From: a virus
Reading direction: 5' to 3' (one strand)
DNA: 33,117 bases
IMG/VR virus record: IMGVR_UViG_3300031702_000029
Span: 1 to 33,117 of that record
A program made the translations under genes and the position numbers. Within the stretch, counting starts at the first letter, position 1. Every line of letters starts with the position of its first letter. Below are positions 1-32,404 of this stretch, one piece after another. The notes beneath the pieces are model-generated. The model was not told where the DNA came from, made no database searches, and worked only from the letters and a program-made list of their open reading frames with translations.

Positions 1-56
1 AAGTAGTCTTGTTTGTTTTCTTGGTATTCGCGGTCCCACCCATCATATGCTGGCAT
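1..56 (-). CDS. 5' end of an unidentified gene running off the left edge
   Basis: Only the first 18 codons are in the window. They read MPAYDGWDREYQENKQDY, rich in charged and aromatic residues as expected of a real coding start. The ATG is at 56-54 and is preceded by a strong ribosome binding site, GGAGGAA, five bases upstream. The start lies inside the end of the GT-B-like gene, a 14-base overlap, which continues the coupled arrangement of this cassette. A second frame with ATG at 46-44 gives a Thr/Lys-rich peptide and has a worse ribosome site position, so I prefer the start at 56. Function cannot be assigned from so few residues. Confidence 0.6.
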   Translation of the reverse strand, partial: MPAYDGWDREYQENKQDY

Positions 57-903
57 TAATTTCCTCCATAGCAGTTACAATCGGCTGTATATTAGGTTCT
101 TTAATATCGCGCCTCCAGTATACACTGCCTCCATCTTGTAGTGTTTTGTCTCTGCGATAAATTACAGTTTTACCATAGTACCTGCACTCTTGAAATATAC
201 GAGGTGCAGGGTCAAATGTTTCTTTTGTGTAAACATAAGTTTCGAACAAACTCATAAGATTTTCTACAGGTACAAATATATTGTTATTCTTTATATTAGC
301 ATACTTTTCGTCATATGTCAAGATCCCGTGATCAGGATAATCATCAATTACTCTTTCAACACTAGCATAGTATTCTGGATTTGTGCCTAAGAACAAATGT
401 TTAAATTGTATATTATCTGTGTGTGGCTTGTATATACTAAAGTTTATAGTTTTTTCAAAGTGTGCGCCTACGCCATTAGGGTATACGTCAGTGTCACACA
501 GGTCTACTATTTGTTTTGGTTTATAAAAGTCAACTGCTTTAGGATATCCGTTAACATGATTCTCTGAATATACGCTTATAACGTTACTGCTAAATAATCT
601 CTGTAAGGATAGCTGTTGCACTAGGGTATAATCATTAAAACTTTGCCAGCTTAGTGTCATCATACTTCTGCCCATAATAAGCGTAACATCATCGTCAGCT
701 GGCACATACGTATCTATAAACACACGCTTACAATGAATGTATTTGCTTGTGATAGAATTCCAATAATCGAGCTGATTATATTTTCTGTGACATATAATAA
801 CAACTTGTGCAGGGTAACCGGCATTGTTTAGCATATCACAGTATTCGTAACTGTAATATAGTAACCCGTCCACTGGCTTACTTGTAACTACAATATTAAT
901 CAT
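43..903 (-). CDS. GT-B-like glycosyltransferase, putative (286 aa)
   Basis: The protein opens with a Rossmann-type strand, MINIVVTSK, followed by a short loop (VDGLLYYSYEY). Near the C-terminus it has TFDPAPRIFQECRYYGKTVIY, with Pro-Arg and Glu in the place where GT-B glycosyltransferases bind the nucleotide-sugar donor. On that basis it probably transfers a sugar in the cytoplasm of the infected cell, but substrate and acceptor are unknown and the assignment rests on remembered family shape. The open frame extends upstream to a TTG at 927. I chose the ATG at 903 because AGGAAC lies seven bases before it and because the β-strand then starts the protein. It overlaps the end of the preceding gene by eight bases (ATGATTAA), consistent with translational coupling. 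It could instead be a non-catalytic GT-B-fold protein. Confidence 0.6.
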   Translation of the reverse strand: MINIVVTSKPVDGLLYYSYEYCDMLNNAGYPAQVVIICHRKYNQLDYWNSITSKYIHCKRVFIDTYVPADDDVTLIMGRSMMTLSWQSFNDYTLVQQLSLQRLFSSNVISVYSENHVNGYPKAVDFYKPKQIVDLCDTDVYPNGVGAHFEKTINFSIYKPHTDNIQFKHLFLGTNPEYYASVERVIDDYPDHGILTYDEKYANIKNNNIFVPVENLMSLFETYVYTKETFDPAPRIFQECRYYGKTVIYRRDKTLQDGGSVYWRRDIKEPNIQPIVTAMEEINASI

Positions 904-1585
904 TAAATTGTTCCTGTAGCCAATCAAAGTTGTTTATGAGGTTAAGATCAGCGCCATTAGATAAACCAAACTCCATGCCGGCAATAGCACCTTTAATACA
1001 GTATTCGCCGAATGGTTTGTCTTTTCCCACTGTTGTCCAAATTCTAAGTCTTTCATTTGTTTCATCATCTACTTGTCCTTTAATAGTTTTACTTGCAAGT
1101 TTAACACATTCTCTAAAAGCACTACGCCATGTACTAAAAGGATCTGTATTAAATGCAGTAATATTGCTAACTGTGTTTATTACGTTAAACTTACTACTAA
1201 TACTTGTAGTCATATCATTAGTAGTAGTGGTCATGTTGCGTGTTAGTGTAGTTGGTAATAGTTTTACACCGCCGTATCCATAGCTTAAATCGTTAATAGG
1301 ATTACAACCGTGCCAAACGTGTACTATATCTTCTTCCTCTGTTGTATGAGCAAATTTGAAGCCCTGTGCGACCTTTGCGTCACCGTCTACTACATAAAAA
1401 TAGTTAGTAGTTGCTAGTGTAGCGGCCGCAATGTGCGCATTGTGAATACCTTTGACATTAGTGATACGCTTTACTCTGTCACCAAATACTCCAACAGTAT
1501 TAAATCTATTGTACAAATCGTCAAAATTTTGTTCCGCATTTGGCTCAAAGTAACTTATAAAGACTATATCATACACTTTTTGCAT
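896..1585 (-). CDS. GT-A-like protein with DGD motif, second copy (229 aa)
   Basis: This is a shorter paralogue of the protein at 2910-3833. Both begin with a strand followed by a SYxEPNAExN segment (here residues 11-20), then VKG(I/S)..AH, then a hydrophobic strand ending in DGD (here residues 67-69, YFYVVDGDA). They also share a YGxGG(V/L)K segment and a WR(S/A)(A/G)FRE(C/G)VKLA helix near residue 154. A DxD-like triplet at the end of a β-strand is typical of metal-dependent GT-A glycosyltransferases, so sugar transfer is the likely role (inference). The radical SAM gene lies between the two copies. The ATG at 1585 has AGGA immediately against it, which is too close. A GTG at 1576 would have AGGA about nine bases upstream and may be the true start; it would remove only MQK. 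Confidence 0.65.
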   Translation of the reverse strand: MQKVYDIVFISYFEPNAEQNFDDLYNRFNTVGVFGDRVKRITNVKGIHNAHIAAATLATTNYFYVVDGDAKVAQGFKFAHTTEEEDIVHVWHGCNPINDLSYGYGGVKLLPTTLTRNMTTTTNDMTTSISSKFNVINTVSNITAFNTDPFSTWRSAFRECVKLASKTIKGQVDDETNERLRIWTTVGKDKPFGEYCIKGAIAGMEFGLSNGADLNLINNFDWLQEQFND

Positions 1586-2913
1586 TCCTCGTAAAAATCT
1601 TCCATTTGAGGGAATACTTCTAAAAAATTAAGATCTCGTCGTTTATCGTATTGTTGTATCCATTCATAAAACATTCTTCGACCTTCGATAGCCTCTTGTT
1701 TCCAATTATCTGAATTAGCATGTCTTAGATCTAAGTCTTTTACAATACGCTTCATTTGAGCTTTTTCTCTATTATTAAAGTTTTTTTCTTCCATGTAAGG
1801 AATACACGGATGTAGGTATTCTTTAATTAATTCATCTGAAGCAATTTTAGCATCTAAGAATCCCGGATTTCTTACATAAGGTATATCTACTACAATCTCA
1901 TTTTCATATCCGCCTTTAAGTCTAGCAACATATTTAAGAAAAGGTAAAAATGTAGGAATACTTAACACGTTAAATGCACTCATAAACACACATCTGCCTG
2001 TTGTTTGTTTTAAATAATACTTAACATTATCTGTAAACATTGTCCAATCCATACCATATCTATTATATTCTTGTTGAGCTCCTTTGCCTTCGGCACTTAC
2101 AAACAATACAAATCTTTTAATACAGTTATTATCTTCTAAAATTTTAATTTTATCTACAAAATCTTTCCATTGTGTTTCTTTTGGAGGACATGCATTTGTG
2201 TTTATTGCAAATTCTAAATTAGGCTGAGGGTTTTGAATTAAGTATTCTATCACTCTATTAGTATGTTTGCTCATCAAAGGTTCGCCACCTGTAATACGAA
2301 ACGTATGCATATGTGTTACTGCTTCTGGAAACCATTTCCAAAATGCGTCAATATATGGATTAGCTTCTCGTTGTGGTATTTGTTTTTGATATTCGTCTAG
2401 TTGATTATATCTCCAATTAACATCTTTGAACGTGTAAGGACCATGTTCTTTAATTTCGTCAGTCCATTTACTACTAAATGCAGGACCACAATAACCACAC
2501 TTAAAATTACAGACATTACTAAAACTAACTTCAACATAACGTGGATAAAAATTTTCATCACCAGTCATTTTAGATATAGTATCAAAATCAGGCCAACTGT
2601 ACGGATCGTTACTTTTAAAAACCCTATCACTATATTCGTCTGTATTATCTTCAATACGCCAGCAATAATCACATTCGTTTGGACGCTCATTGTTAAGCAT
2701 CTGTTTTCTTACATTCTTTTTAAATCCGGTATTATGCAATGCACCTGGATTTTCTGCAAGCTCGTTTAGATCAATTGGGTGTGCTTTAACATGATGACAA
2801 CTGTGTGTAAGTCCAGCGCCTAAGTGAATTGTTACTTGTGTCCACTTAGCTAGGCAAAACCCACAGCCGACATTATCGAGCTTTTCTTTTACTTCATGTA
2901 GCTCTATTTTCAT
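1564..2913 (-). CDS. Radical SAM protein with N-terminal twitch-like cysteine region (449 aa)
   Basis: The CX3CX2C signature that binds the [4Fe-4S] cluster and S-adenosylmethionine is at C135, C139 and C142 (VCNFKCGYC). A glycine-rich FRITGGEPLMS segment follows, typical of the SAM-binding strand. Before the core are cysteines C17, C20, C39, C81 and C84, in a pattern I recall from marine-phage 'twitch domain' radical SAM proteins (C..KW..V.....G....C, then R..ML....P.EC.YCW). These may hold an auxiliary cluster. A further CxxC (444/447) ends the protein. The enzyme should generate a 5'-deoxyadenosyl radical; the substrate is unknown. It starts four bases inside the preceding gene (ATGA) with AAGGAAA as ribosome site, and its end overlaps the next GT-like gene by about 20 bases. 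A role in modifying a sugar or a peptide is inferred from neighbours only. Confidence 0.87.
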   Translation of the reverse strand: MKIELHEVKEKLDNVGCGFCLAKWTQVTIHLGAGLTHSCHHVKAHPIDLNELAENPGALHNTGFKKNVRKQMLNNERPNECDYCWRIEDNTDEYSDRVFKSNDPYSWPDFDTISKMTGDENFYPRYVEVSFSNVCNFKCGYCGPAFSSKWTDEIKEHGPYTFKDVNWRYNQLDEYQKQIPQREANPYIDAFWKWFPEAVTHMHTFRITGGEPLMSKHTNRVIEYLIQNPQPNLEFAINTNACPPKETQWKDFVDKIKILEDNNCIKRFVLFVSAEGKGAQQEYNRYGMDWTMFTDNVKYYLKQTTGRCVFMSAFNVLSIPTFLPFLKYVARLKGGYENEIVVDIPYVRNPGFLDAKIASDELIKEYLHPCIPYMEEKNFNNREKAQMKRIVKDLDLRHANSDNWKQEAIEGRRMFYEWIQQYDKRRDLNFLEVFPQMEDFYEECKKCMI

Positions 2914-3833
2914 TTACTTTCCTTATCAAGTATGTTGTTTGATATAGCCCTACCAAAATTTTGATTTACTGTTCTAAAAAATTCACTTTGTTCTGAATTA
3001 AAAGGTTGTACTGCTATTGGAATATCTAGTGAACTGATTAGTTCTGATCCAAGATTAAATATTTCACTGTGTAATATATCGCCAGGCAAGTCATCTCTGC
3101 CGCCCCATAGTTGATCTAAGTATTCAAAGTCACGCACTTGTACATAATCCCAATCAGTACACATTGTCATCTGCAAACCTTCTCGGGCACCGTAAATTGC
3201 CCAGTCACCATTTTCTGCGTCTGCACCAACCATTAACCAAATGTAAAGCATGTTAAGGTTCTTTTCGTGGCCGTTTAAAAAGTCTTCTTTAGTTGGCTTG
3301 GCTCCTCTATCAAGTGCAAGTTTAACACCTTCTCTAAAACCTGCCCGCCATGCTTGTTGTGGTGTTGCATTATTATATACATCACTAAAGCAACTGTTCT
3401 GTTGAATATATTGCATGTCCCAACAAAAGTCAACTTGTGCATGTACATTATCTGGTTCAGCGTTCTCGTGTGTGCGCATGTTTAGAACATACTCTTTGGG
3501 CCAACATTTTAATCCGCCGTTGCCGTACATTAATCCATTAACTTTGTTTTGACCGCACCAACTAATTACAGTGTTTTCTAAGTCGGCGTGTTCGTCAAAG
3601 TCTAGAACTTGATTAATAAAGTCAGAACGAATTTTATTATCACCGTCTACTGTAATAAATCTATCTGTCTCACTTAGTTCTGCACATGCTTTGTGTGCGG
3701 CATCACTACCTTTAACACCGTGTATACGTTTTGCCCAAGGAGCCTTAGTTAGCAAATCTGCATAATTTTCTTCTGCATTAGGCTCGTCATAACTTAGATA
3801 GATAATGTCTTGTTCTGCAATTCTTAATTTCAT
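2910..3833 (-). CDS. GT-A-like protein with DGD motif, first copy (307 aa)
   Basis: The N-terminal half carries SYDEPNAEENY (residues 14-24), GVKGSDAAHKA (39-49) and a strand ending in DGD (63-65, FITVDGDNKI). The triplet resembles the metal-binding DxD of GT-A glycosyltransferases. A MYGNGGLK segment and a WRAGFREGVKLAL helix follow. The same order of motifs occurs in the 229-aa protein two genes downstream, so the pair are paralogues; this copy has about 60 more C-terminal residues. It overlaps the upstream gene by one base (TAATG) and the downstream radical SAM gene by four (ATGA), so it is probably co-translated with them. Sugar transfer is inferred from the motif, and the substrate is unknown. 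The family is one I recall from T4-like cyanophages, without an experimentally proven activity known to me. Confidence 0.65.
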   Translation of the reverse strand: MKLRIAEQDIIYLSYDEPNAEENYADLLTKAPWAKRIHGVKGSDAAHKACAELSETDRFITVDGDNKIRSDFINQVLDFDEHADLENTVISWCGQNKVNGLMYGNGGLKCWPKEYVLNMRTHENAEPDNVHAQVDFCWDMQYIQQNSCFSDVYNNATPQQAWRAGFREGVKLALDRGAKPTKEDFLNGHEKNLNMLYIWLMVGADAENGDWAIYGAREGLQMTMCTDWDYVQVRDFEYLDQLWGGRDDLPGDILHSEIFNLGSELISSLDIPIAVQPFNSEQSEFFRTVNQNFGRAISNNILDKESK

Positions 3834-4369
3834 TATACTTCCTTATACACACATGTTGTCATTTCATTTGTAGTGTACACACTATACTCATCGTTAATAC
3901 AAAACGGTTGCGGTGTGTCGTCACCTACAGTAAAAGTCATAATGCTGTATAGAAAATGCGGGTCGTCTTTGTTAGTAATACTAAACATTACTTCCTTTTC
4001 TAAATCTACATTATGTGCTTTCATTGCGTCTGTTAGTTTGATGTTTGTACTAGTATAACAGATTTTATTAGCCTTGTCAATCATTAATATAACATCATAT
4101 GATTGATTTTTATATTTGTCCACTTGCTTAAAGGATAAACTATTTTCACCAATGACTATTTTTTTAAGCAAAAACTGCTTCTCTGTCATATTGTACATTA
4201 CTGCATAATCAGTCATTTTTTCTTTTAATGATTTTATTGGGGCAATTTGTTCTTCAGTAACTTCCATATACTGATACCCTTCTTCAATGCTAGGGCCAAT
4301 ACTAAATATCTCACCAGTGTCTTGTGTAAAGCACACATATTGCGGAGTGTGTATAGTTACATAATCCAT
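3833..4369 (-). CDS. Unknown protein of the glycosyltransferase cassette (178 aa)
   Basis: I do not recognise this protein. It has no obvious catalytic motif, signal peptide or membrane segment. The first 40 residues are β-like (YVCFTQDTGEIFSIGPS), the middle is Lys-rich with alternating hydrophobic residues, and the C-terminal third again looks like β-strands, so a small globular β-rich fold is likely. It starts from an ATG overlapping the preceding glycosyltransferase stop by one base (TAATG), with GGAG about eight bases upstream, and ends in the same one-base overlap with the next gene. That strict coupling on both sides suggests it is needed in a fixed ratio with the enzymes, for example as an accessory or scaffold protein, but this is a guess from context. 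It could equally be a structural protein. Confidence 0.7.
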   Translation of the reverse strand: MDYVTIHTPQYVCFTQDTGEIFSIGPSIEEGYQYMEVTEEQIAPIKSLKEKMTDYAVMYNMTEKQFLLKKIVIGENSLSFKQVDKYKNQSYDVILMIDKANKICYTSTNIKLTDAMKAHNVDLEKEVMFSITNKDDPHFLYSIMTFTVGDDTPQPFCINDEYSVYTTNEMTTCVYKEV

Positions 4370-5163
4370 TAATATTTCTCCATTACTTTTTTACAAAACT
4401 CGTGTTCTGTGTAATGGAAAACTCCATGTTGTAAAAAATTGCCAATCTTTAGTTCGTGTTTGGCTGTAAAATAAAACGGAATAGTGTCCATCCAATTAAG
4501 GCTTCCATTCTGCCAGCCCTGTACTGCACTTTTCATATGAACAAAGTTGCATAGAGTATGTTCGTAGTTTTCTATGTTACTAAGGCATACTGCTATTGCA
4601 TGGTTCACATCCATACTACTTACAGGTGGTGATTTTTTAGTAACATATTTTTTATAATAATCTTCATAATTAATACACACGTTTTCTAATATTCTATAAT
4701 AAGCTAAAGCAATATCGTTCTTTTTAAAATAATGAAATGCACAATATACATTGGGTAACTGATTTGCTGTAAATGTTTTTCTGTAATAATCACTAGTTAC
4801 TATAGTATTTCTATATGTGCGTGAGTTAGTAGGGAACGCTATATCATGCAGAGCTAATTCTTTCCACCAATGACTTACGTCTGTAAGGAATATCATATCA
4901 GTATCAAGTACTACTGTTTCATCGTATGGAGATAGATGGAACATTTTCCATCTATGTTCTGTTAAGTAAAACGAAGAAGCGTCATCATGCCACGGAACTT
5001 GAATAATGTTATCAAACACACTCTTATATTCATTAGGAACAGTATCACTAGTTACCAACGACACGTTATTAATTGTTTGAGTAGCTTTAATACTCTTGGC
5101 ACACAAATATGCTTGCTGAACATAGTTGTCGCCTATTGCTGTCATTATATATCCTTTAGACAT
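4369..5163 (-). CDS. GT-A glycosyltransferase, DTD motif, GT8-like (264 aa)
   Basis: The protein begins with a strand and conserved YVQQA..CA.SI pattern typical of GT8-like nucleotide-sugar transferases. The metal- and donor-binding DxD is DTD at residues 87-89 in LSPYDETVVLDTDMIF. The following H-rich segment near the C-terminus (LQHGVFHYTEH) might contribute a further metal ligand (inference). It is a paralogue of the next gene upstream, which has the same PYDxTxVLDTD core. The ATG at 5163 overlaps the upstream stop by eight bases (ATGTCTAA) but has a weak ribosome site. An internal ATG at 5145 is preceded by AAAGGA at good distance and would give a protein six residues shorter. I keep the longer form because YIMTAIGDNY reads as one intact first β-strand. 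Donor and acceptor are unknown. Confidence 0.75.
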   Translation of the reverse strand: MSKGYIMTAIGDNYVQQAYLCAKSIKATQTINNVSLVTSDTVPNEYKSVFDNIIQVPWHDDASSFYLTEHRWKMFHLSPYDETVVLDTDMIFLTDVSHWWKELALHDIAFPTNSRTYRNTIVTSDYYRKTFTANQLPNVYCAFHYFKKNDIALAYYRILENVCINYEDYYKKYVTKKSPPVSSMDVNHAIAVCLSNIENYEHTLCNFVHMKSAVQGWQNGSLNWMDTIPFYFTAKHELKIGNFLQHGVFHYTEHEFCKKVMEKY

Positions 5164-5977
5164 TTATAATTCGTCCCAAGCTAAATTTATTCATTACATG
5201 TACATTTATATCTTTAGTTGATGCTAGTGTATATTCACCAACATAATGCTGTTTCTCTAATAAAAATGATAGTTTATTATCATTAATTGACCGTAGTATG
5301 TCTTTGTCTAATGTATAGAACATCTTACCTGGTAATATTTTAGCCCAATTACTATCTTCAAAACCGTTCATCATGTGAATAGCAATACTAAATGCATGAT
5401 CGTTCCTAAAGTTGCGAGCACCTAAATCATATACGTTCTTATAATGATTCCAATACTCTACAATATGCTGGAGCAATTTAAAAAACATTTGTGTTTCGTC
5501 ATTTTTTTTAAAACAAAAGCACGTTGCCCAATAGAACGGTATGCCAGTGTCGTTGATATAATCAAATTCACTATGGTAACGCCAACTAGATAAATCAACT
5601 CCATCTTTGTATATTTGAAAATGTTCTGTATCAAATGCATGTTTAAAATCATCATTACATATTACATAGTCGGTGTCAAGAACAAGTGTTTGGTCATACG
5701 GGGTTAGGTCGTAGCTATTAGCTCTACCAGAATTCTTAAAATATAATTTTTTATGGGTCAGTGAACCGTCACTGTATCGTTTAGAATTACTTGAATCATC
5801 TGCTACTATAATTACATTATCAAACGGATGGTTATCTGGAATACTTTTATGGCTAGAAGTAACTAGAGTAGTAGGCAAGTCTAAATGTAGTCTGACTCTG
5901 TTAGCAAGGAATGTTGCTTGCTTTATATAATCAATTATGCCATTATTATTTGCAAAACACAATACGCCATTAGTCAT
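5156..5977 (-). CDS. GT-A glycosyltransferase, DTD motif, GT8-like (273 aa)
   Basis: The core LTPYDQTLVLDTDYVI holds the DxD triplet (DTD, residues 101-103) expected to coordinate the metal and nucleotide-sugar in GT-A enzymes. Upstream of it are the helix YIKQATFLANRVR and the strand LVTSS, matching the layout of the 264-aa neighbour; the two genes look like an old tandem duplication. The open frame begins at a TTG at 5992. I place the start at the ATG at 5977 because GAAGG lies eight bases before it and because the resulting eight-base overlap with the preceding stop (ATGACTAA) is the overlap type also used by two other genes here. It probably acts in the cytoplasm on a nucleotide-activated sugar. 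The acceptor is not identifiable. Confidence 0.72.
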   Translation of the reverse strand: MTNGVLCFANNNGIIDYIKQATFLANRVRLHLDLPTTLVTSSHKSIPDNHPFDNVIIVADDSSNSKRYSDGSLTHKKLYFKNSGRANSYDLTPYDQTLVLDTDYVICNDDFKHAFDTEHFQIYKDGVDLSSWRYHSEFDYINDTGIPFYWATCFCFKKNDETQMFFKLLQHIVEYWNHYKNVYDLGARNFRNDHAFSIAIHMMNGFEDSNWAKILPGKMFYTLDKDILRSINDNKLSFLLEKQHYVGEYTLASTKDINVHVMNKFSLGRIINV

Positions 5978-6320
5978 TAACAAAGCCTTCAACGCTACTT
6001 CTATTTTTAATTAACGACTTGTATGCTGTTAGATATGTGTTAGATGCTTTTGCATAACACTGTAATGCTAAATCTAAAAACTCTTGGACATTTAAAATTT
6101 CAAACGGAGTATGATTGTCGTCAATTAATACAGTTTGTTGGATGTCTTTGGAGTTTAGTAAATGACAGAAGTTTATTAATTCTTTTGTTACAGTAAATCT
6201 TCCGCCATTGCTATACACAATTAATTGCGAAGTGTACTTTTCATGAAGTATACGTCTTTGTGTGTTAAGTGTTACTGCAAAATTAGAGAACTCTAACGCT
6301 TTTCCTAGTGCCTCGTCCAT
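5970..6320 (-). CDS. Unknown small protein heading the enzyme cassette (116 aa)
   Basis: This helix-rich protein resembles a small hypothetical protein I recall from T4-like cyanophage genomes, with MDEALGKALEFSNF at the start, a central NGGRFTVTKELINFC segment and a KNRSSVEGFVND tail. No catalytic motif or membrane segment is visible, and I cannot name a function. The start is clear: ATG at 6320 preceded by AGGAGT about eight bases upstream. It is separated from the 304-aa gene before it by 38 bases that contain a possible late promoter box, so it may be the first gene of the transcription unit carrying the glycosyltransferases. Its end overlaps the following gene by eight bases. Whether it belongs functionally with the structural genes or with the enzymes cannot be decided from the sequence. 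Confidence 0.75.
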   Translation of the reverse strand: MDEALGKALEFSNFAVTLNTQRRILHEKYTSQLIVYSNGGRFTVTKELINFCHLLNSKDIQQTVLIDDNHTPFEILNVQEFLDLALQCYAKASNTYLTAYKSLIKNRSSVEGFVND

Positions 6321-6358: not shown

Positions 6359-7273
6359 TTAAAGGTTATCGGATGTAGCGAAAGTTGGCGCTGTGATGTT
6401 AACGCTGTTTGAGTTATTAGGTCTATTCATTTGTGCTGTGCTAGTAGTAGTAGCTGTAACAGCTTCGTCGAAGTTTGGATTTGCACCTTTATCTTCGTTA
6501 AACGTAACTTTAAATGTCAAACTACTTGTACCTTTAAGTGCTTCAATTAAATAATCGTTTGCACTGTATGCACTTGCTGTTTTGTTAAAAACAGTTGTGT
6601 AACTAGCGGGCAAGTTTGAATAACCGTAGTTGGTTCCCACCGAACCGTTACTTGTAGTTGCTCTTCCAAACTGTACTGTACCAACTGATGTCATTAAGTT
6701 ACGCCAGTCATTGTTAATTGTAGTGTTTCCAGAACCAATTGTACCACTAAGGTTGATTGTTCCGCCGGCGTTAAAGAACACACGCATATGTTCTGCGGCA
6801 CTCACGGTAGTTGTTGTGCCGTCACCGTTAGTAACTGAATAGCCACCAAAGGAAACTGTAAAAATATGATTAATATCGGTTGACCAACTAGCAGTTCTTG
6901 TGCTACTTGTACCAGACTGTAAGCCTAGCTGACTTGCGGCCGCAGATAATCTTGCACTTTGACATGTAATACTTAATCCTTCATATTGGTAATAACCTTT
7001 TTTCGAAACGCTATTACTATCTTCAATAGCATCTCCTGCTGTAGGAGCAACAATTTCACTCGGTACTGCACCTGTTTGATGCAATCGAAGTTTTGTCATA
7101 TCAGTAAACAAGTTTGTTATGTGCTGTGCTGTTACAGTTGCACCAACTGCTACTGTGCTACTTGCCCTTGCTTGGCCGTAGCCTTCGTCCCCGGCACCTA
7201 CGCCGATTATTGCTGATAGTCTTGCTTGAATTGCGTTATACCGCGCCGCGGTGATTGTGTCGCCTACTGCCAT
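6359..7273 (-). CDS. Probable virion structural protein, marine T4-like type (304 aa)
   Basis: The N-terminus, MAVGDTITAARYNAIQ, followed by a GAGDEGYGQ segment and a short helical stretch with LFTDMTKLRLHQTG, matches a hypothetical/structural protein I remember from T4-like marine phages. From about residue 90 the composition changes to Thr, Ser, Asn and Gly with alternating hydrophobics, as in β-sheet fibre or decoration domains. It lies directly after three tail fibre genes, so a fibre-associated or fibre-tip role is plausible, but nothing proves it. The ATG at 7273 has AAAAAGGA six bases upstream. A one-mismatch late promoter box (TATAAGTA) lies 27 bases before the start, so it can be expressed on its own. 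No enzyme motif is seen. Confidence 0.78.
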   Translation of the reverse strand: MAVGDTITAARYNAIQARLSAIIGVGAGDEGYGQARASSTVAVGATVTAQHITNLFTDMTKLRLHQTGAVPSEIVAPTAGDAIEDSNSVSKKGYYQYEGLSITCQSARLSAAASQLGLQSGTSSTRTASWSTDINHIFTVSFGGYSVTNGDGTTTTVSAAEHMRVFFNAGGTINLSGTIGSGNTTINNDWRNLMTSVGTVQFGRATTSNGSVGTNYGYSNLPASYTTVFNKTASAYSANDYLIEALKGTSSLTFKVTFNEDKGANPNFDEAVTATTTSTAQMNRPNNSNSVNITAPTFATSDNL

Positions 7274-7299
7274 AATTGTTCCTTTTTAGTACTCTCTAA

Positions 7300-7307
7300 T
7301 ACTTATA
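7300..7307 (-). promoter_or_regulatory. T4-type late promoter box before the 304-aa gene (TATAAGTA)
   Basis: One mismatch from TATAAATA, 27 bases before the start of the 304-aa gene and close to the spacing of the other boxes. It again contains the stop codon of the preceding gene (7305-7303) at positions 3-5. Confidence 0.5.
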
Positions 7308-8784
7308 CTTTAAGTACGCACTCTACTAACTTTTCTGAGTCATCTGTATTTGACTCTAGTGCCATACCAATTAGTGCGGTTGTTGCTATAGTTGAGCAAA
7401 CACCGTCTTCCCATGCATAAATTGCCTGGCCTTTATTTACAGGTCCTTTAACTCTTACCGGAAGACGTCCTTTAATTCCAATGTACTGTCCATCTGCTTC
7501 GCTGTTCATCATATAAGCAGGATCAGTTGAAACAACACCAATCGCCATGCTTGACGCACTTGCTGGTCCTACTTCTGCAACATCGTCAAAACGTACTGCT
7601 ACTGCCGTTCCTGCTGGTAGTTCTTCTGCTGTTGTATATTTTTCTGCAAGGTCAGCATAACGTGCGCTTGTTGACGCACCGTTAAATACGTTTGCGGCAA
7701 GATTTCCACTTGCATCACGCACTGCTACTGTATTGTTTGTTGAATTCACATCACCAGTTCTATAGTTTGCGCCAACTTGTAGTGCAATCGCTTGAGTTGC
7801 TAATCCGTTAAATGCAGTAGCATATATGTTGCGCCATTTGTATGCGCTTGTACCTATATCATATGTTGCTGTTGCAGTCGGTTTTAATCCATCTGCATTT
7901 ATATGCATTGGTTCGGTTGTAACACCACCTGATGATTTAACTTTAAATCTAATTTTTTGACCAGTTGTGTTTTCAATAATTGCTTCAGTACCAGATCCAG
8001 CAGGGTCAATAAAAATATGCAAGTCATTTGCCGCGCCAGCTGTTAATCCAGTATCTGCAAATCTAACTACACTACTAAAGTTTGCCGCTCCGGCTAATGC
8101 ATAGTCTGATGCCGCAACTCCGCCTAGTTTTTCAGCATTTGTTGCTGTACCGTGGAATCTATGAGTACTTGTAGTTACGCCTCCTGCGGCTGATGTTGTA
8201 TTTCTTAGTGTTACACCCTGGCGTATTTTGTCGAATCCCGTAATGGTATTTGTAGGGTCAGTAGTATCAATTGTAAATTCTGAAGCACTAACAATAAATT
8301 GTACTCCGTCATCTACTGTGCTTTTAATAATGGTTCTATTAACCTGTGTATTGTCACGTACTTGAGCAGTAACCATTGCACTAACTGTATCGCCAATACT
8401 CTGTGGACCAATTAGGACAAATCCACCATCAGCATTTTGTGCATACAATTGGTTATTATCAGTATCCCACCAAAAATCACCTGTAGTTAATCCTACCGGT
8501 TGCGCTGATGCAATTTCTGCTCCGCCTGTTGTTCTAAACTTAGTTCCATCATAAAACTTTAGTTTTCTTAATGAACTATCAAACCAAATTTGACCAGATA
8601 ACGGACCTGCTGGTTGATTTGCACTGGAAAAATTCTCTAGCAAATGAACAAAGTTTTCGTTTTGGATTTCACCGTAACCAGCGTAGTTTTTACCTACTAG
8701 CTTTAATGAAGTACTCTGGTCAATGGTTCCGTCTTCAACAGTAGCTAACTGTGTACCATTTGTTAAATTTATTACGTATGCCAT
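7303..8784 (-). CDS. Tail fibre protein with peptidase-G2-like C-terminus (493 aa)
   Basis: Residues 1-130 form the N-terminal domain shared with the next two fibres upstream (MAYVIN..., GKNYAGYGE..NENFV..LENF, PLSGQIWFD, LKFYDGT, GDFWWDTDNNQLY). This domain probably attaches the fibre to the baseplate or another fibre. A repetitive β-region follows, including YDIGTSAYKWRNIYA, a common marine-phage fibre motif. From about residue 375, SARYADLAEKYTTAEE, then GVVSTDPAYMMN, then a hydrophobic C-terminus resemble the C-terminal domain of many phage fibres, related to the peptidase G2/intramolecular chaperone type, which in some families cleaves itself after trimerisation. Whether cleavage happens here is not visible. 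A perfect TATAAATA box precedes the gene, so it may be the most strongly and separately expressed fibre. Confidence 0.85.
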   Translation of the reverse strand: MAYVINLTNGTQLATVEDGTIDQSTSLKLVGKNYAGYGEIQNENFVHLLENFSSANQPAGPLSGQIWFDSSLRKLKFYDGTKFRTTGGAEIASAQPVGLTTGDFWWDTDNNQLYAQNADGGFVLIGPQSIGDTVSAMVTAQVRDNTQVNRTIIKSTVDDGVQFIVSASEFTIDTTDPTNTITGFDKIRQGVTLRNTTSAAGGVTTSTHRFHGTATNAEKLGGVAASDYALAGAANFSSVVRFADTGLTAGAANDLHIFIDPAGSGTEAIIENTTGQKIRFKVKSSGGVTTEPMHINADGLKPTATATYDIGTSAYKWRNIYATAFNGLATQAIALQVGANYRTGDVNSTNNTVAVRDASGNLAANVFNGASTSARYADLAEKYTTAEELPAGTAVAVRFDDVAEVGPASASSMAIGVVSTDPAYMMNSEADGQYIGIKGRLPVRVKGPVNKGQAIYAWEDGVCSTIATTALIGMALESNTDDSEKLVECVLKV

Positions 8785-8812
8785 TCTTTTAAACCCCTAA
8801 TTGTGTTATATG

Positions 8813-8820
8813 TATTTATA
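8813..8820 (-). promoter_or_regulatory. T4-type late promoter box before the 493-aa fibre (TATAAATA)
   Basis: A perfect match to the T4 late promoter octamer, 29 bases before the fibre start and followed by the ribosome site AGGGG. The TAA stop of the 612-aa fibre gene (8818-8816) occupies positions 3-5 of the octamer. Confidence 0.7.
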
Positions 8821-10654
8821 TCAGAGTGCCCTGAGATATGTCTTGTACATATGCCCATGATCCTGTTACTACTCTAAATAGTTTTAACGACCTTGTTACA
8901 GTCGATGTAATGTTACCAGTTGCATTGTTAAATGTAGCACTTTGTATAACACTTACTGATCCGTCATCGTTGCCGCCACTGTCTTTTTGTTGAACAAGTA
9001 CATTACTTTCGTTAAACGCTGTGTCCAATGCAGATCCCGTTAGTGTAGCTGTAGCGCCTGTAGTTGTTGTACAATGCACTCTAGCTTCTGATCCATTCTG
9101 TTTTGTTCCTGCTGGAGCAACATCTTCAAGAATAGTTCCAATATTTGTATGTTGTTGTGTAGTCCCAGGAGATCCTATTCCAGTAACATCTAATGCAATA
9201 GAAAGTGCTTCTATATTAATACTAGCATCAACATATGCTTTAGTTGCAACGTCTTGATTTGCTGTTGGATCTGTTACGTTTTTAATCTGTCTTGCAGTTA
9301 CAAGGTTAATATTGCCGGCCGCAGTAATGTTTAATCCATTGCCATCACCGTCTACTGCTCCTGTTGACATTCCAATTCCACCAGTAAACGAAATATTACC
9401 AATAGAAGCTGATGTTAGCGCACCCAACTGTGTAATACCACTAGCATTTGAGCCAGTAATAATATCTACTCCGCCAAACTTTAATGAACCGGTTTCAATA
9501 TTAATACTTTGATTTGAAGTCCATGCACTTGTGCTGTTTCTCCATAACCAAGATTTATTGCCACCCGACGAAGCTACTATAATACCTGCTTCGTCAACTC
9601 CTGCATCATCTAGTAATGTACTATCGTCACCTTTAGCAAGCTCAATACTTTTATCTCTTACTAACAATTTGCCTACGTCAACTACTAATTGTTCACCACC
9701 AATAATTAAATCGCCACTAACTCGTAGACTTCCGTTAACGTCGAAGGTATATGCAGGTGCTGTATTAAAAACACCAATTCGGCTATTTGCTGAATCAATA
9801 GTCATTGCATCTACTTTACCAGTACTAGTAGTCATTCTAAAAGTGTAGTTTTCGCCTGATACTTGGTTTTCACTTATTACACCCGACGCTTCAACTTTAA
9901 GTACATTGTTGTCTGTAAGACCTACTGTAACGCCATTATTATTTCTAACTGTTAATGCACCAGATGTTGCATCGTCTGAATCACTAGCAAGGAACTGTGC
10001 CGCAGTTCTTGATACATTGTTACTATCAACTAGCGCAGTTGTTCTTGTTGCTGTACCAGAAAAGACAAAGTCTGCATCTACAACGTTAAATCCTTTTACA
10101 ACCGTTCCTGTGTATCCTGGAATAGTGTCAATACTTTGGGGAGTAAATTCAATTTTGCTCCATAAGCCAACAAATGTTCCGCCGACCCAATACTTGACAA
10201 TAGTTCTACTTGTTCCTGTATTATCGAGAACAGTAATAACTTCTGGTCCAGATTGGCCTTGGAATACATTGTAGATAGGACCTGCTAATCCCAAGTCTGT
10301 ACCGTCAAAGAAGTATAGTTGGTTCTGTTCATTGTTAATCCAAAGGTCGCCTGCAACCATAGGTGGTTGAGTTGATCCTACTAAGGGGCCACCGCCTGTT
10401 GTCCAGTTTGCTCCTGTATAAACTTTAAGTCTTGATGAGGAAGTATCCCACCAAATTTGTCCTGCCAATGGAGTAGTTGGTGCTGATGTATTTGCAAAGT
10501 TTTCAAGCATTGAAACAAAGTTTTCATTTATTGCTTCGCCAAATCCTGTATAGTTTTTACCAATCAATGTAATGTCAGTACTTGCTACATCAACCTGTCC
10601 GTCTGCGAGATTAACTAGTAATGCACCGCTTGTTTTATTAATCTGATATGCCAT
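8816..10654 (-). CDS. Tail fibre protein, paralogous N-terminus, no collar domain (612 aa)
   Basis: The first 130 residues align by eye with the 493-aa and 693-aa fibres (MAYQINKTSG, GKNYTGFGEAINENFV..LENFANT, PLAGQIWWD, LKVYTG, GDLWINNEQNQLY). The middle is a long β-rich, Gly/Ser/Thr/Asn-rich shaft with GSLRVSGDLIIGGEQL and KSIELAKGDDSTLLDDAGVD segments. A DPTANQDVATKAYVD motif near residue 470 is common in trimeric phage fibres just before the distal domain. The C-terminal 140 residues have no collar or G2-like signature and probably form the receptor-facing domain. The gene follows the 693-aa fibre after three bases; its ribosome site GGGGG lies inside the end of that gene, so the two are probably translated together. 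Its stop codon sits inside the next late promoter box. Confidence 0.85.
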   Translation of the reverse strand: MAYQINKTSGALLVNLADGQVDVASTDITLIGKNYTGFGEAINENFVSMLENFANTSAPTTPLAGQIWWDTSSSRLKVYTGANWTTGGGPLVGSTQPPMVAGDLWINNEQNQLYFFDGTDLGLAGPIYNVFQGQSGPEVITVLDNTGTSRTIVKYWVGGTFVGLWSKIEFTPQSIDTIPGYTGTVVKGFNVVDADFVFSGTATRTTALVDSNNVSRTAAQFLASDSDDATSGALTVRNNNGVTVGLTDNNVLKVEASGVISENQVSGENYTFRMTTSTGKVDAMTIDSANSRIGVFNTAPAYTFDVNGSLRVSGDLIIGGEQLVVDVGKLLVRDKSIELAKGDDSTLLDDAGVDEAGIIVASSGGNKSWLWRNSTSAWTSNQSINIETGSLKFGGVDIITGSNASGITQLGALTSASIGNISFTGGIGMSTGAVDGDGNGLNITAAGNINLVTARQIKNVTDPTANQDVATKAYVDASINIEALSIALDVTGIGSPGTTQQHTNIGTILEDVAPAGTKQNGSEARVHCTTTTGATATLTGSALDTAFNESNVLVQQKDSGGNDDGSVSVIQSATFNNATGNITSTVTRSLKLFRVVTGSWAYVQDISQGTLI

Positions 10655-10657
10655 GTT

Positions 10658-12739
10658 TTAGCCCCCAACTCCTGTATAGATAATGTAACTTACTGTTAAG
10701 AATGGGTTCATCACGTTATATGGTGTTCCAAGTTCCGTAACATCAAATGTTTCGTATTCTTCAAGTCCCGTAACTGCATTATAAGTAATGTTTCGCCTGT
10801 TTAACACACCACCTGATGATGTACGAGCTTGTCCAGCTTGCGAACCAGTGGGTGCATCATACGGTAATGTGTCAGCATCTTGCTGTGTACCACTATCGTC
10901 AAGCATTACATAAAACTGGGCACCTTTTGGTGATCTTAAATCATGCTCGTGTTCTGGTAAGTTTTTAACATCAATTACTCTACTTTCAACACCAGATCCA
11001 AGACCTACTGTATCAGCGTTAGCATCTGAAACTCTGTTTGCACTAGCGCCGCCTAAGTTATCAGCACCAAGTGCAAATCTACCTCTAAAGTCCGGAAGTC
11101 CAAAGAATCCCGATGATACTTGACTTTGGTCTTTAAATTGGTATTGTATACTGTTATACAACGTTAAATAGTCAGAAATTCTAACTTCTGATCCATCGCA
11201 CACTAACCATCCATCCGGAGTGTTAATGCCGCCAAATGGCATTAACGAACCAACTGGTATTGTAGGTACACTACTTACCAGTGCGGCTTGTGATATCTTA
11301 AATACTCCAGTATCATCACCTGAAATTCTGTTAATAATAATTTCATCGTCTGTGTTTGGTACTGTAGCTAATGTTTTGTTAGCAATAAATGTATTACTAA
11401 TTGATGTTGTAAATGTTTTTGTTGTGCCGCCTATTTGGCCGTCAAAAGTAATTTGATTAGAACTCACATCACCTGAAAGCTCAAATGTACTTGCGCTTGT
11501 AAGTTTGTTAGCATTTGCCGCACCACCTGTAACTGTACCAGTAATGTTACCAATTAAGTTACCTCTAAATTCAACTGCATGTACAGTTGACCAACGTTTT
11601 GTTGTGCTACCTAGTGCATAACTCTGTGTTGATATAGGAGTAATTGCTCCACTGGTGGTTGACCCTGCAACACTAAAATCTGTTCCGACAAATAGCTTTT
11701 TCGCAATGCCTACACCGCCGTTAATTTTAACAGCACCTGTACCAATACTAGAACTATCTGTTGTACCCTGTACAATTAAGTTTGCACTTGTTTGAATTGA
11801 TCCTGCTACGTCTAATGCTTCAGCTGGGCTTAGTGTGTTAATTCCAACTTTTTCAGTCGAGTCAATTCTAATAACATTTTTTTGTACACCTAAGTTGTTA
11901 ACTTTAAAGTCAATTGGAGCACCCGATGTTAAGTTAGTAACAACTCCCGAAGTTCCTTGAACGTCTAAAGTAACAATAGCATCTTGCCCAACTTGTATTC
12001 CCGAGTTGTTACTAATTGTTAATTTCTGTGTTGATGTACTTGCAACGTCTCCACGTAAGAAATTACTTGCCGCAACACTTGCTCCGGATACAATTAAGTT
12101 TTCTGCTTTTTCACTAGTGCCCAGATACTTACTAACTCCGTCGCCGCTGATGTTAGCTGTTGAAAGATTCAGTCCTGGTTGAATTATTGTAAATCCTGCG
12201 ATTGTACTTTTTGGCTGGAAGGTTCTTGTAGAATAAATTGCTAACGGAGAACCTGAAACTTCAAGTTGTAATATAGTATAAAGTACTTCATCTTTACCTG
12301 TTATAACAACTGGCTTTGCCCCAGTTAAAAGACCATCACTATATTCTGGTCCAACTAATGTCCAGCCACTACCTGTAAAAATATATAACTGATTGTTGTC
12401 TGTATCTGACCAAAGATCGCCTGTTAGTGCATTTGCTACGTCAGGTGCAGTACTTCCCTTTTTAAGCCCACTAGCATTACTCCAAACTGTGCCATCGTAC
12501 AGTTTAAGTGTATCAACACCAGTTGAACTATCATACCATAGTTGGCCTTGAATTGGATTTCTAGGCGCTGTAGTATTAGCAAAGTTTTCTAATTGTTTTA
12601 AGAAGTTCTCGGCAATAACTGACCCATAACTAGTAGTGTTACGTCCAGGAATATCTAGACTGGTTTGCTGATTAATTGTACTATCTTCAATTGAAATAAT
12701 ACCTTTGTTACTGTCTGAGTAGTTAATTGTATATGCCAT
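10658..12739 (-). CDS. Tail fibre protein with gp12-type collar domain (693 aa)
   Basis: The N-terminal 130 residues are the shared fibre domain (MAYTINYSD, GRNTTSYGSVIAENFLKQLENFANT, PIQGQLWYD, GDLWSDTDNNQLY). A β-rich shaft follows, including GGVGIAKKLFVGTDFSVAG and a WSTVHAVEFRGNLIGNITG repeat-like stretch. Residues about 494-560 are a phage tail collar domain (IPVGSLMPFGG, DGWLVCDGSEVR, FFGLPDFRGRFALGAD), as in T4 short tail fibre gp12. After it, LPEHEHDLR places two histidines at 597 and 599. In T4 gp12 an HxH pair from each of three chains holds a zinc ion inside the trimer, so a similar site is plausible. The protein ends with a hydrophobic strand (NPFLTVSYIIYTG) typical of this family. 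It overlaps the preceding gene by one base (TAATG). Confidence 0.92.
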   Translation of the reverse strand: MAYTINYSDSNKGIISIEDSTINQQTSLDIPGRNTTSYGSVIAENFLKQLENFANTTAPRNPIQGQLWYDSSTGVDTLKLYDGTVWSNASGLKKGSTAPDVANALTGDLWSDTDNNQLYIFTGSGWTLVGPEYSDGLLTGAKPVVITGKDEVLYTILQLEVSGSPLAIYSTRTFQPKSTIAGFTIIQPGLNLSTANISGDGVSKYLGTSEKAENLIVSGASVAASNFLRGDVASTSTQKLTISNNSGIQVGQDAIVTLDVQGTSGVVTNLTSGAPIDFKVNNLGVQKNVIRIDSTEKVGINTLSPAEALDVAGSIQTSANLIVQGTTDSSSIGTGAVKINGGVGIAKKLFVGTDFSVAGSTTSGAITPISTQSYALGSTTKRWSTVHAVEFRGNLIGNITGTVTGGAANANKLTSASTFELSGDVSSNQITFDGQIGGTTKTFTTSISNTFIANKTLATVPNTDDEIIINRISGDDTGVFKISQAALVSSVPTIPVGSLMPFGGINTPDGWLVCDGSEVRISDYLTLYNSIQYQFKDQSQVSSGFFGLPDFRGRFALGADNLGGASANRVSDANADTVGLGSGVESRVIDVKNLPEHEHDLRSPKGAQFYVMLDDSGTQQDADTLPYDAPTGSQAGQARTSSGGVLNRRNITYNAVTGLEEYETFDVTELGTPYNVMNPFLTVSYIIYTGVGG

Positions 12740-13368: not shown

Positions 13369-13376
13369 TATTTATT
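13369..13376 (-). promoter_or_regulatory. T4-type late promoter box before the 203-aa gene (AATAAATA)
   Basis: One mismatch from TATAAATA. It lies only 19 bases before the ATG of the 203-aa gene and contains the TAA stop of the giant gene (13374-13372) at positions 3-5. It would start a unit carrying the 203-aa gene and the 693- and 612-aa fibres. The leader would be very short but still leaves room for AGGA and AAAAAGG. Confidence 0.55.
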
Positions 13377-16300
13377 TGGGAAGCTCTACCTTTTCTGCCT
13401 TAAAGAACCGTGCTACTAAACTTTCTGCATCATTTAGTGAAATACCAGGCTCTGTCCAGCGTTTTCCTTGTCTTCTAACAATTTGAATCTTTGCATTATT
13501 TGCAGGAGTGTTTAAAAGTGTTAAAAATGGTGTGGTTCCGTCTACGCTAAACTCTGCTGGTACAGTTTCATCAGCTTCTGGACTATCTTGATCCAATAGC
13601 GGATTAAACACACTAATAGCAGTTTTACGCAAACGTTTACCTGCAACAAATACTTCAAATTCATTAACTGAGTTTGGAGTAAACGCTAATTCAAATACTG
13701 TTGTAGAATTATCTCCAATTTGTTCATTAATGATAGTTTCGTCCATATAAGGTGCTGTTTGCATCTGTCCTTGATTGTATACATCGCTACCTGCTTCGTG
13801 TACTGTTGGTGCTCCAGTTCCCAATGTTCCACGCTGTATTTGTCTAAGAACATTGCCTTGCTTAACTAGATACTCAATACGCTCGCCGTTAATAAACAAA
13901 ATTCCTGGTATTTTACTATTTTTATCCGGAGTACCAATATTACTTGCATCATCTAAGTAAATTTCTTTATCAAACGTACTAAGAGGTTGTGCTAGTTTAA
14001 TTGGTGCAATATCTCCTAAGCGTTTATAAATATTTCTATTTAAAATATCCTTAAACTGGCTAAAACCAAACTTAGGTTGTAGCTCGCCTTGGGCACTGAA
14101 TTGTAAAACCTCAACAACGTCAGCATCTGCAAATGATCCGTTGTACTTTAAGAAAAGTTTATCATCTGTAAGTCTATAATCAACACTTGGAGTTTTTAAT
14201 ACGCCATTAATAGTTAGCCAAACGTACTGTGCATCAATAGCCGGATAGCGTAATTTAACTAGGCCAGCTTTAATATGGTTAAACTGTATATGATCTTCTG
14301 ATCCAACACTTAATGTTGATCTTGAAACAACATCAAAATTCTGTCTTTCAAAGTTCATACTAGCATGATCATTAAATGTATAAACTGTTAGCTTCTCACC
14401 TATGCTGGGTGCAGTTATTAACTGTAGCTGTGCTCCGCTATCAACCCAAGTGTCTTGATTATCAATAACTTGTATACTACCAAATGCATATTCACCATCA
14501 CTACGTACATATACTTCTAATATATCACCGTCTTTGCCGATTCCTGGCTCAAGTATTATACTACTATTCGCCGGGCGTAAGTTGTACTCAACTGCAATAA
14601 CAAGCTCTTTGCCGTTAAGTAATACAAGTATATCGCTGTTATCAAAACTACCAATTGGTATTTGCCACATCTCTAAGAAATACTCTCTTGCAGATGTTGT
14701 AACATCAAACTGCTGATTATATCCTGGGTTTAAAATTTTGTTTCCTTGTTTAACAATTACATTGTGACTGTTAGGCTTATCACTATACGGAATCTTAGCT
14801 AGTGTAAATGCCGCTGTACTACCGTCACCTGTAAATTCAGTTGTTTCAATTTTACTGAAAGAATCAACTGAACTGTATACTGCAAAGTTAATAACACTAT
14901 TGTCTGCTGGTGCTTTACCAAATATAAACATTGCCTTTGGATCTTTTTCAGTACTATCACCCGATGATGTCATTATTGTTTCAACGGTTTCTCCGTCAAC
15001 TGTTACATAATAATCTAATGTCTTAGTGTAATGAACTTTAGTTACATAAGCTAGTGTACATCCATCACCTGTAAATTCGCCTTGATCAAGTACATTTTTT
15101 CCGTTTCCACTAATTGACATAATGTTAACATCTTGGTTAGCACTTACAACACTATTAAAAGAAATAGTTTTATTCTTATAGTTTACAGTATAGCTAGATT
15201 GAGCTTGTATTGCATCCCCAATGCGTACAAACAATCCATGTTTGTTTTGTGGAATTATGCCGAACCTAAATACAGTTTCAATACCATCAGTTCTATAAGA
15301 ATTACTTGATAGTATACTGCCGCCTTCTTTTGGTCTGTGGAATACTTTGATATCAACTGAATCTTGTACTTGTCCCGGAACTTGCTCTTCAGGTCCGCCA
15401 CTTGTAGTAGGAGTAACAAATCCGTCACCGTCGATAATTATTTCTTCTGGGTTAAATCCTTTAGCTGTACTAAACTGCATATCGCCGCCGCTTAACACAG
15501 TATCGTATGATCTTGGGTCTGGAAGGAATGCGCCATCTGACGTAGCTTTTCTAAATACAAGAATATCTCCGGAGCCAGTATTAATAATGTCTTCATCAAA
15601 TACAATTATATCAGATGCTAACTCAGCACCATCATCAAATAATGCAACACCAGTTTGGCTTGCGCCAGTAATACTAGTAATAACTGCATTGGTGTTTGTT
15701 TGGCTAGCTAATCCAAAGTTTGGATCGTCAAGTCTTACGCCATTTTTATAAACATTATAAACTATACCTGTTTCTAGCGGAGCACCAAAGTTTAGTACTC
15801 TTGTACTGTCATCGCCTAGTTGGAATATTTCATCTTCAAACGTTGTATCAAATGTGTCATATGTTGTAGTAAACCATTCATCTGAATCCCAACCCGACCC
15901 TGTTCCAAAATCAAAGCTAGATACTTCAACGCCGCCATAGTCAACGCCGTCTATTAGTTGCGAAAGGTCATTTCCGTACATCCCCGTAATTGGGTTATAA
16001 TACAAATTAATTCTATCTTGTGCTTGTAGTAACTCTGGAGCTTTGTTATATGTAATAACTACCACTTGCCCTAATTTTAACGGTGTAGTAAATGCAATAC
16101 GCCCGGCACTTCTTGTATATCCTTTAGTAACGTCTTTAATATTACTAAATGTATACTCACTTCTTAGAGATTCTAGTCCATCAACTGTAACTGTAATTTG
16201 TGTAGACTTTAACTGCATTGGCCATTTTAAATTAAAGTTCTGTTGATCAAGTACTGATGTAAATGTTTGTGTTTCTAGTAATGTCTGGAATAGATATGTT

Positions 16301-31300: not shown

Positions 31301-31892
31301 CCGGAACATCTGAATTAGTAGATCTAAATCTATATTGTTGTGTTAGTACTCCGTCAACTTGTAGAGACTTTGCTGGTTTTCCAACTGTGTTGTTTCTAGG
31401 CAGGGCCGCATTAAGAACCCGTCTAAACTGTTCTGTCCAATTTATGTTGCTAGGGTCGTTCCAAATAATAGTTTGGTCAGATAAGTTAATGCCGTTACTA
31501 TCAATTATTTCTTCTGTAGTTGCTACTGTCTCAAACTTAATAAGACCGTTAGCGGCTTGATTACGCTTTGCATTATAAGACAACATGCGTGCCATGCGGA
31601 GAACTGATTCTCTACGCTCTGCAAGTTCTAAGAAGTTTTCTCTTGCATTCAAGTCAACTCTATAACTAATATTTTGCCCAAGGAAGGCAATCATATCAAT
31701 TAGTGCAAGATATTCTGATGTGTCAATATAATCGTTAAAATCTTCAGGATAGTTATTCCTTAGATATGTGATCATTGATCTTCTTAATGTGTCAAAGTCA
31801 TAGCTACGAAACTCTGCATTTCGGAAACTTTGGTAGACTTTTGTCCAGTCTTCTGCAAGTAGCAGTCTATTCTGTCTGTCGGTTGATGACAT
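28395..31892 (-). CDS. 6: Baseplate wedge protein, gp6 type (1165 aa)
   Basis: The N-terminal segment from residue 31 (YDFDTLRRSMITYLRNNYP, then DTSEYLALIDMIAFLGQNIS, DLNARENFLELAERRESV) is the conserved start of the gp6 wedge protein in marine T4-like phages; T4 gp6 begins with the same arrangement of a short helix, Tyr-Asp-Phe and a hydrophobic helix. gp6 forms the ring that joins neighbouring wedges of the baseplate. At 1165 residues it is far longer than T4 gp6 (660), so the middle and C-terminal parts must hold extra domains. The last 30 residues are a flexible Ser/Thr tail (SSTSTSTSISSSASNSSSGG). It follows gp25 as in T4 and is separated from it by 64 bases that carry a late promoter box. 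Its stop overlaps the start of the giant gene by one base. Confidence 0.9.
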   Translation of the reverse strand: MSSTDRQNRLLLAEDWTKVYQSFRNAEFRSYDFDTLRRSMITYLRNNYPEDFNDYIDTSEYLALIDMIAFLGQNISYRVDLNARENFLELAERRESVLRMARMLSYNAKRNQAANGLIKFETVATTEEIIDSNGINLSDQTIIWNDPSNINWTEQFRRVLNAALPRNNTVGKPAKSLQVDGVLTQQYRFRSTNSDVPVFGFAKGVNGLQTQFEIVSTDVNSNTSQIKEENPVPGNNLAFLYREDGRGTSSANTGYFLHFRQGTMQSANFNVSNPTSNQVIAIDAQDINNSDVWLYQLDENGNPETLWTQVDAIEGNNAIYNSVNKKIRNFYVVQTRANDQISLVFADGTFGNIPNGNFRVYYRQSANRSMKVVPSELTSITFSFPYLATSGKTETLTVGVELKQAVTNATNSESSSSIKQNAPQTYYTQNRMVTGEDYNIVPLTANQEIIKVKSTNRVSSGISRYFDLKDATGKYSSTNLFGSDGVLYREKYESKASFTFSTQTDIEGTIENKILPTIQNRAISNYYFANYAKIIVSDLSATWQQSTKTTNSSSGLLNNISSVPYQIGTFTGGSLKYVEAGALLKFVPPVGFYFVDNGKLTSNASAKGASAYKWVRVISTAGSGASVNSTTGEGPIVLNEILPANSVLEEIKPKLVKDITADVRSQIIDQVFAYKTFGLRYDQVNRIWRVIINENLNVNDVFSNGKTGDVTNNQLDSSWLVLFQTNGETYTVTNRGLRYVFESDKELSFYFDGQNKIYDSSTGQLVKDKIGIMNFNTKPDVLTAFNNDVNWEIVKEFRNTDGYVNSKKVEVSFYDLNDDGSIDDPDVFDVVVAPLTNTSTKYIFLKKVESDQGFSKYNFYSDSNLINVVSTETEIGAYSQYTSGQVFYIIDSNNFKVLNNSVLIVTADYKAHIGRSNLKFQYVHSADEGNRIDPSASNIIDVYMLTKTYDTNFRKYITGSITNSPLPPSTDELYQNYGRTINQYKSISDEVIYHSVEYKPLFGTHAQDNLQATFKIVKNNGQVINDNEIRTLVITAINQFFALENWDFGDTFHFTELATYVMNQVAPDVVNILLVPKQATQGFGSLYEVKAENNEIFINDATVADVEIIDSVTASRIQASGNIITATNTTNTGIKSQALTVTSSTSTSTSISSSASNSSSGGSSY

Positions 31893-31919
31893 CGGTTATC
31901 CTTATCTAATCTCTACAAG

Positions 31920-31939: not shown

Positions 31940-31956
31940 GCTAGTAGTTAATTCGG

Positions 31957-32391: not shown

Positions 32392-32404
32392 ACTGTATTT
32401 ACCT

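Follow-up and report, generated by a model that had tools for sequence, protein, structure and literature searches.

A fixed glycosyltransferase block behind the tail-fibre genes of uncultured aquatic phages, often joined by a swappable radical SAM gene, with a probable role in decorating fibres or host surface

Aquatic phages commonly carry genes for radical SAM enzymes and glycosyltransferases, and these are usually dismissed as metabolic genes or as modifiers of the host surface. Among the closest described systems are the host recognition clusters of pelagimyophages, reported in 2020, in which tail fibres, GT8 enzymes and radical SAM cassettes lie in a variable island behind the VrlC baseplate gene; the authors favour a modification of the host O-chain (PMC7029224). 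The window analysed here, that is, a 33-kb virus fragment from IMG/VR, likewise has fibre, glycosyltransferase and radical SAM genes behind a large baseplate gene. It differs in that its baseplate protein is closest, among the matches listed, to those of jumbo phages, and in that a fixed gene order and an optional radical SAM gene could be established for its lineage. Phage-encoded glycosyltransferases for virion proteins are also described in mycobacteriophages, where capsid and tail-tube proteins were shown to carry glycans (Freeman et al. 2023, as cited in PMC12619734). The likeness lies in such enzymes, for which the acceptor in our case would be the fibres, and the difference is that the part of that article drawn on here mentions no radical SAM enzyme.

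For the radical SAM protein, two further comparisons are available. BtrN is a twitch radical SAM dehydrogenase of an aminocyclitol (PMC9012708). The window protein resembles it in having a radical SAM core, one auxiliary cluster with four candidate Cys residues and an amino-sugar-like context, but the twitch domain is C-terminal in BtrN and N-terminal in the window protein, and the two are likened at the superfamily level only. The family N_Twi_rSAM (NF033640) is matched above its cut-off, with both sets of cluster Cys residues present, and the window member differs from the family in being tied to a fibre and glycosyltransferase block. One phage genome is reported to hold a dozen radical SAM genes (PMC5332604).

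Thus, the view of the original prediction that the combination might be undescribed is only partly right, because the fibre, GT8 and radical SAM clusters of pelagimyophages were already published (PMC7029224). As far as the surveyed literature shows, what is new is the fixed order of the core, the optional radical SAM gene, the gene fusions and the baseplate link to jumbo phages. In these uncultured aquatic phages, a fixed glycosyltransferase block follows the tail-fibre genes, in many cases together with a radical SAM gene that can be swapped, and we think that the probable role of this block is to put sugar on the fibres or on the host surface.

All main genes of the window are on the minus strand (Table 1). 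In the direction of transcription, gp25-like and gp6-like baseplate wedge genes come first, then the genes of a giant protein (5007 aa), of a small conserved protein and of four fibre proteins, and last the cassette. The cassette has eight genes with overlaps of 1 to 22 bases, and a ninth gene begins behind them and runs out of the window. The starts of g7 (5977..5156) and g1 (903..43) were set from homologous starts.

Table 1. Features of the window; coordinates are positions in the 33-kb fragment.
Feature	Coordinates	Strand	Basis
DegT/DnrJ/EryC1/StrS sugar aminotransferase start, leaving the window	1..56	-	18 visible residues
g1, predicted GT-B-fold glycosyltransferase	43..903	-	AlphaFold2 model and fold search
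g2, shorter g4 paralogue (DGD, GT-A-like)	896..1585	-	aligns with g4; single-ORF fusions with g4 in relatives
radical SAM protein, N-terminal twitch domain (NF033640)	1564..2913	-	299.2 bits, cut-off 170
g4, predicted GT-A-fold glycosyltransferase (DGD), helical C-terminal part	2910..3833	-	AlphaFold2 model and fold search
g5, 178 aa, longer forms in relatives	3833..4369	-	immediately before g4 in 60/65 loci
g6, GT8-like GT-A glycosyltransferase (DTD), paralogue of g7	4369..5163	-	profile and DxD; tandem pair in 64/65 loci
g7, glycogenin/GT8-type GT-A glycosyltransferase, DTD motif	5156..5977	-	profile match to glycogenin-1; DxD nearly invariant
g8, 116 aa, always first gene behind the fibres	5970..6320	-	present in 63/65 g4-fetched loci with enough upstream sequence
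four fibre proteins (6359-7273, 7303-8784, 8816-10654, 10658-12739)	6359..12739	-	per protein, see text
baseplate context: 5007-aa giant protein, gp6-like and gp25-like baseplate wedge proteins	13372..32427	-	PHROG baseplate wedge matches for the two smaller ones

Two of the fibre proteins (7303-8784 and 10658-12739) have PHROG matches to tail fibre, short tail fibre and tail protein families, and the protein between them (8816-10654) has the N-terminal part common to both. The fourth (6359-7273), which adjoins g8, is without a family match and is assigned as a fibre by position; its Ser plus Thr content (25.7%) is the highest found. The giant protein is a single reading frame (13372-28395) between the baseplate and fibre genes, and equivalent 13-kb genes occur in the jumbo phages Phosso and Atu_ph07.

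Compared with their closest relatives, the ten genes tested gave dN/dS values of 0.10-0.27 where synonymous change was not saturated, which indicates that these genes are real and maintained. Together with an order that recurs in dozens of contigs, this purifying selection means that the cassette is not a chance assembly. None of the cassette proteins has a clear membrane segment; the top 19-residue hydropathy is 1.72, in the radical SAM protein, and at most 1.04 in the others.

The original prediction had described nine coupled genes that encode one radical SAM enzyme, two DTD-type GT-A enzymes, two DGD-type proteins, a GT-B-like protein, two unknown proteins and a gene leaving the window. 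Its count, strand, coupling and composition agree with our results, as detailed below. The profile of g6 and g7, the DTD pair, matches glycogenin-1 (E 4.3e-7 over 112 residues). Because they match no Pfam glycosyltransferase family, we call them GT8-like and do not file them as GT8. The AlphaFold2 model of g4 (pLDDT 90.4) has a Z of 11.2 over 142 residues to B4GALNT1 and also matches SpsA and STIV A197; g4 is thus predicted with high confidence to have a GT-A fold, and it may act as a glycosyltransferase. The second DGD protein, g2, is judged GT-A-like by its alignment with g4, to which the structure model belongs, and in this alignment D63 and D65 are invariant in 31 sequences. In about a dozen relatives g4 and g2 form one reading frame. 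Repeats at the N-terminus of some g2 relatives resemble degenerate versions of the GT-A part (L048, the same protein as 19560-21254 of L049; L060:9729-11057).

The other two proteins, g8 and g5, stay without a family assignment: g8 had no match in Pfam, PHROG, NCBIfam or PDB, and g5 had none in a PDB profile search. Such PDB searches gave nothing useful for g1, g4 and the radical SAM protein either, and searches of named phages with g4, g7 and g8 returned no matches. No cassette protein matched a characterised protein O-glycosyltransferase family at curated cut-offs in Pfam, PHROG or NCBIfam.

In the case of g1, no Pfam glycosyltransferase family and no GT4 homologue (hhalign) was matched, that is, no sequence model recognises this protein. 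Its fold emerged from the fold search after the sequence comparison with GT4 had given nothing. The AlphaFold2 model (pLDDT 93.1) has a Z of 16.1 over 247 residues to BshA and of about 16 to PimA, and it consists of two Rossmann-like domains, predicting a GT-B fold as in GT4 enzymes. The visible residues of the ninth gene, MPAYDGWDREYQENKQDY, show 100% identity with the first residues of proteins of 357 aa in three loci (L239, L240, L254), which identifies this gene as the start of a DegT-type aminotransferase. Relatives match PF01041 with 277-283 bits and look PseC/LegC-like, at scores below the curated cut-offs. The pair of g1 and DegT is also found away from fibres, together with carbamoyltransferase, nitroreductase-like and further radical SAM genes. 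At L241:8981-11159, three consecutive nitroreductase-like genes lie between a DegT aminotransferase and a radical SAM gene.

The radical SAM protein matches NF033640 over positions 4-398. The CxxxCxxC residues C135, C139 and C142, and the auxiliary-cluster candidates C20, C39, C81 and C84, are invariant in 30 relatives; the protein thus carries conserved ligands for clusters and would be expected to catalyse a radical SAM reaction. Among named phages it matched only two Vibrio phages (23%). A role in a defence system was considered and rejected, since only weak superfamily matches to viperin were obtained.

To describe the neighbourhood of the cassette, we fetched loci with g4, independently of the radical SAM gene, because loci fetched with the latter carry an ascertainment. 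The best 80 of at least 587 g4 relatives were used, and the counts therefore describe the neighbourhood in this lineage and not that of all g4 relatives. In the 65 loci with more than 4.5 kb upstream, g5 directly precedes g4 in 60, two GT8-like genes are present in 64, and g8 and a fibre gene are each found in 63. The order fibre-g8-g7-g6-g5-g4 is thus seen in 60 to 64 of the 65 loci, which clearly contradicts the lack of conservation that the original prediction had named among its refuting conditions. When the radical SAM protein served as the query instead, about 50 of the 80 viral loci obtained showed this same order, and 61 of those 80 had a g4-family gene directly before a radical SAM gene.

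The radical SAM gene itself lies within two genes of g4 in 37 of 66 g4-fetched loci and is absent downstream in 14 (again among the best 80 of at least 587). Because of this absence we rejected it as a member of the core and regard it as accessory. Of two large relatives that carry the core, the one of 145 kb gave no NF033640 match and the one of 109 kb a single match far below the cut-off. When the window is compared with L002, the synonymous difference is 0.22 for the radical SAM gene and 0.60 for the adjoining g4, and the radical SAM gene therefore appears to move separately from its neighbours. The window thus consists of a fibre-linked core (g8-g7-g6-g5-g4, usually with g2), an accessory radical SAM gene and a second module of g1 and DegT. 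The original prediction is therefore supported in its view of a conserved glycan gene set linked to the fibres, with the correction that the radical SAM gene is lacking in many relatives and that the g1-DegT pair also occurs away from fibres. Two contigs binned as Neomarinimicrobiota (L122, L124) contain the full phage fibre-cassette block; this may reflect a host link or a binning error.

The radical SAM enzyme is linked to glycan pathways, because g1 is fused to an NF033640 domain in single reading frames (L290:5992-8907 and L301:895-3111; 240 and 273 bits) and because glycan genes surround its bacterial homologues. The bacterial relatives (L082-L159) come mostly from records of Bdellovibrionota, which are predatory bacteria, and a GT4, carbamoyltransferase or DegT gene is at most six genes away in 27 of 76 loci. 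The enrichment is modest: GT4 genes made up 33/749 of the near genes versus 6/330 of the far genes, and carbamoyltransferase genes 14/749 versus 0/330.

Taken together, the likeliest explanation, to which we give about an even chance, is that the cassette serves as a glycosylation module coupled to the fibres, in which the tailoring genes can be exchanged. Here, g7, g6 and g4, often with g2, would assemble a short glycan and transfer it to a protein of the virion, with a fibre as the likeliest acceptor, while g8 and g5 would be helpers that, for example, present the acceptor. The radical SAM enzyme and the g1-DegT pair would be exchangeable and alter the sugar: DegT may make an amino-sugar nucleotide, g1 may transfer that sugar, and the radical SAM enzyme may oxidise or rearrange the sugar or amino sugar as BtrN does. 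We propose such an oxidation because of the twitch domain and the neighbouring genes. A virion acceptor is favoured because the glycosyltransferases are predicted to be soluble and lack membrane partners, the order of fibre, g8 and g5 is invariant, and the adjoining fibre protein is rich in Ser and Thr. The narrower proposal that the radical SAM enzyme and the fibre-linked glycosyltransferase set build an unusual, changeable modification of the tail fibre is tentative, and we consider it rather doubtful. If it is true, such a modification would be a fast way to alter adsorption or to shield the virion.

The same genes could instead remodel a surface polysaccharide of the host during infection, block superinfection by competitors and travel with the fibres in a host-recognition island. 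This is possible, if somewhat unlikely. A host acceptor is suggested by the sugar genes typical of surface glycans (DegT, carbamoyltransferase and rmlC-type) downstream in relatives, and by the published view of similar islands, since the authors of the pelagimyophage study proposed it for their GT8 genes (PMC7029224); the bacterial radical SAM homologues, too, are often in surface-glycan loci. However, host-directed genes should turn over with the host, whereas the core keeps an invariant order with the fibres, g8 and g5. Moreover, no flippase, GtrA/GtrB-like or polymerase membrane protein, and no membrane glycosyltransferase of the kind used in Gtr-type serotype conversion, was found among the window genes by 19-residue hydropathy. 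That the proteins are instead inactive scaffolds or glycan-binding virion parts sharing only the fold is very improbable. The degenerate-looking repeats of some g2 relatives would fit such a role, but the DxD motif is invariant or nearly so in g4/g2 and g6/g7, and all tested genes are under purifying selection.

We also considered a peptide of a fibre protein as the substrate of the radical SAM enzyme, with the glycosyltransferases adding sugar to the residue so modified; SPASM/twitch enzymes often act on peptides (PMC11002830). The cultured phages Phosso (Sinorhizobium) and Atu_ph07 (Agrobacterium) bear on this point. They are, among the matches listed, the best named matches of the gp6-like baseplate protein (about 35% identity), and like the window they have a giant structural gene, a small protein and a fibre gene in succession. 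In them, a run of three or four radical SAM genes comes next. Between the fibre gene and this run, directly adjoining its SPASM-like members, are genes for proteins of about 300 aa (L315:24415-25335 in Phosso, L317:23119-24009 in Atu_ph07) that end in CHTSCHASCHSSRSRR and CHSSCHASCHNSRSRR, with a CH-x-SCH-x-SCH tail; they look like candidate radical SAM targets on a virion-like protein. Nevertheless, we regard a peptide target in our lineage as improbable. The fibre protein next to g8 has few Cys residues and no such tail in any locus examined, so that a Cys-rich target tail on it was rejected; Phosso and Atu_ph07 encode radical SAM proteins that, unlike the window's, show no close relation to NF033640; and many phages that share these fibres do without the radical SAM gene. 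The stretch behind the fibre gene of the two cultured phages holds no homologue of g1, g2 or g4-g8. Finally, the likeness of the g1 fold to T4 AGT and the PP-loop ATPase-like and carbamoyltransferase genes of related modules raise the idea of hypermodification of phage DNA with sugars, as performed by T4 glucosyltransferases. We consider this very improbable, since the core is located in the fibre module and not among replication genes, and no thymidylate-synthase-family gene (hydroxymethylase-type, PF00303) was found in 12 related contigs of 85-262 kb, which are possibly incomplete.

A core of fibre and glycosyltransferase genes in fixed order, to which interchangeable tailoring genes are added, points to a specific function in modifying virion adhesins. 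It offers a concrete gene set for testing, and through the fusions it links the widespread NF033640 family, which has no known substrate, to glycan chemistry. Because Atu_ph07 and Phosso are in culture and carry runs of radical SAM genes behind a fibre gene, the relation between fibres and radical SAM enzymes can be tested.

Several relatives show further arrangements of radical SAM genes. In L254:4901-7171 and L298:6260-8491, an N-terminal part with an SGGLDS PP-loop motif is joined to a twitch-type radical SAM part. The 117-kb contig of L192 (IMGVR_UViG_3300017914_002709) has about a dozen NF033640 matches above the curated cut-off, and as many as nine radical SAM genes lie together in a single locus of 21 kb, L081.
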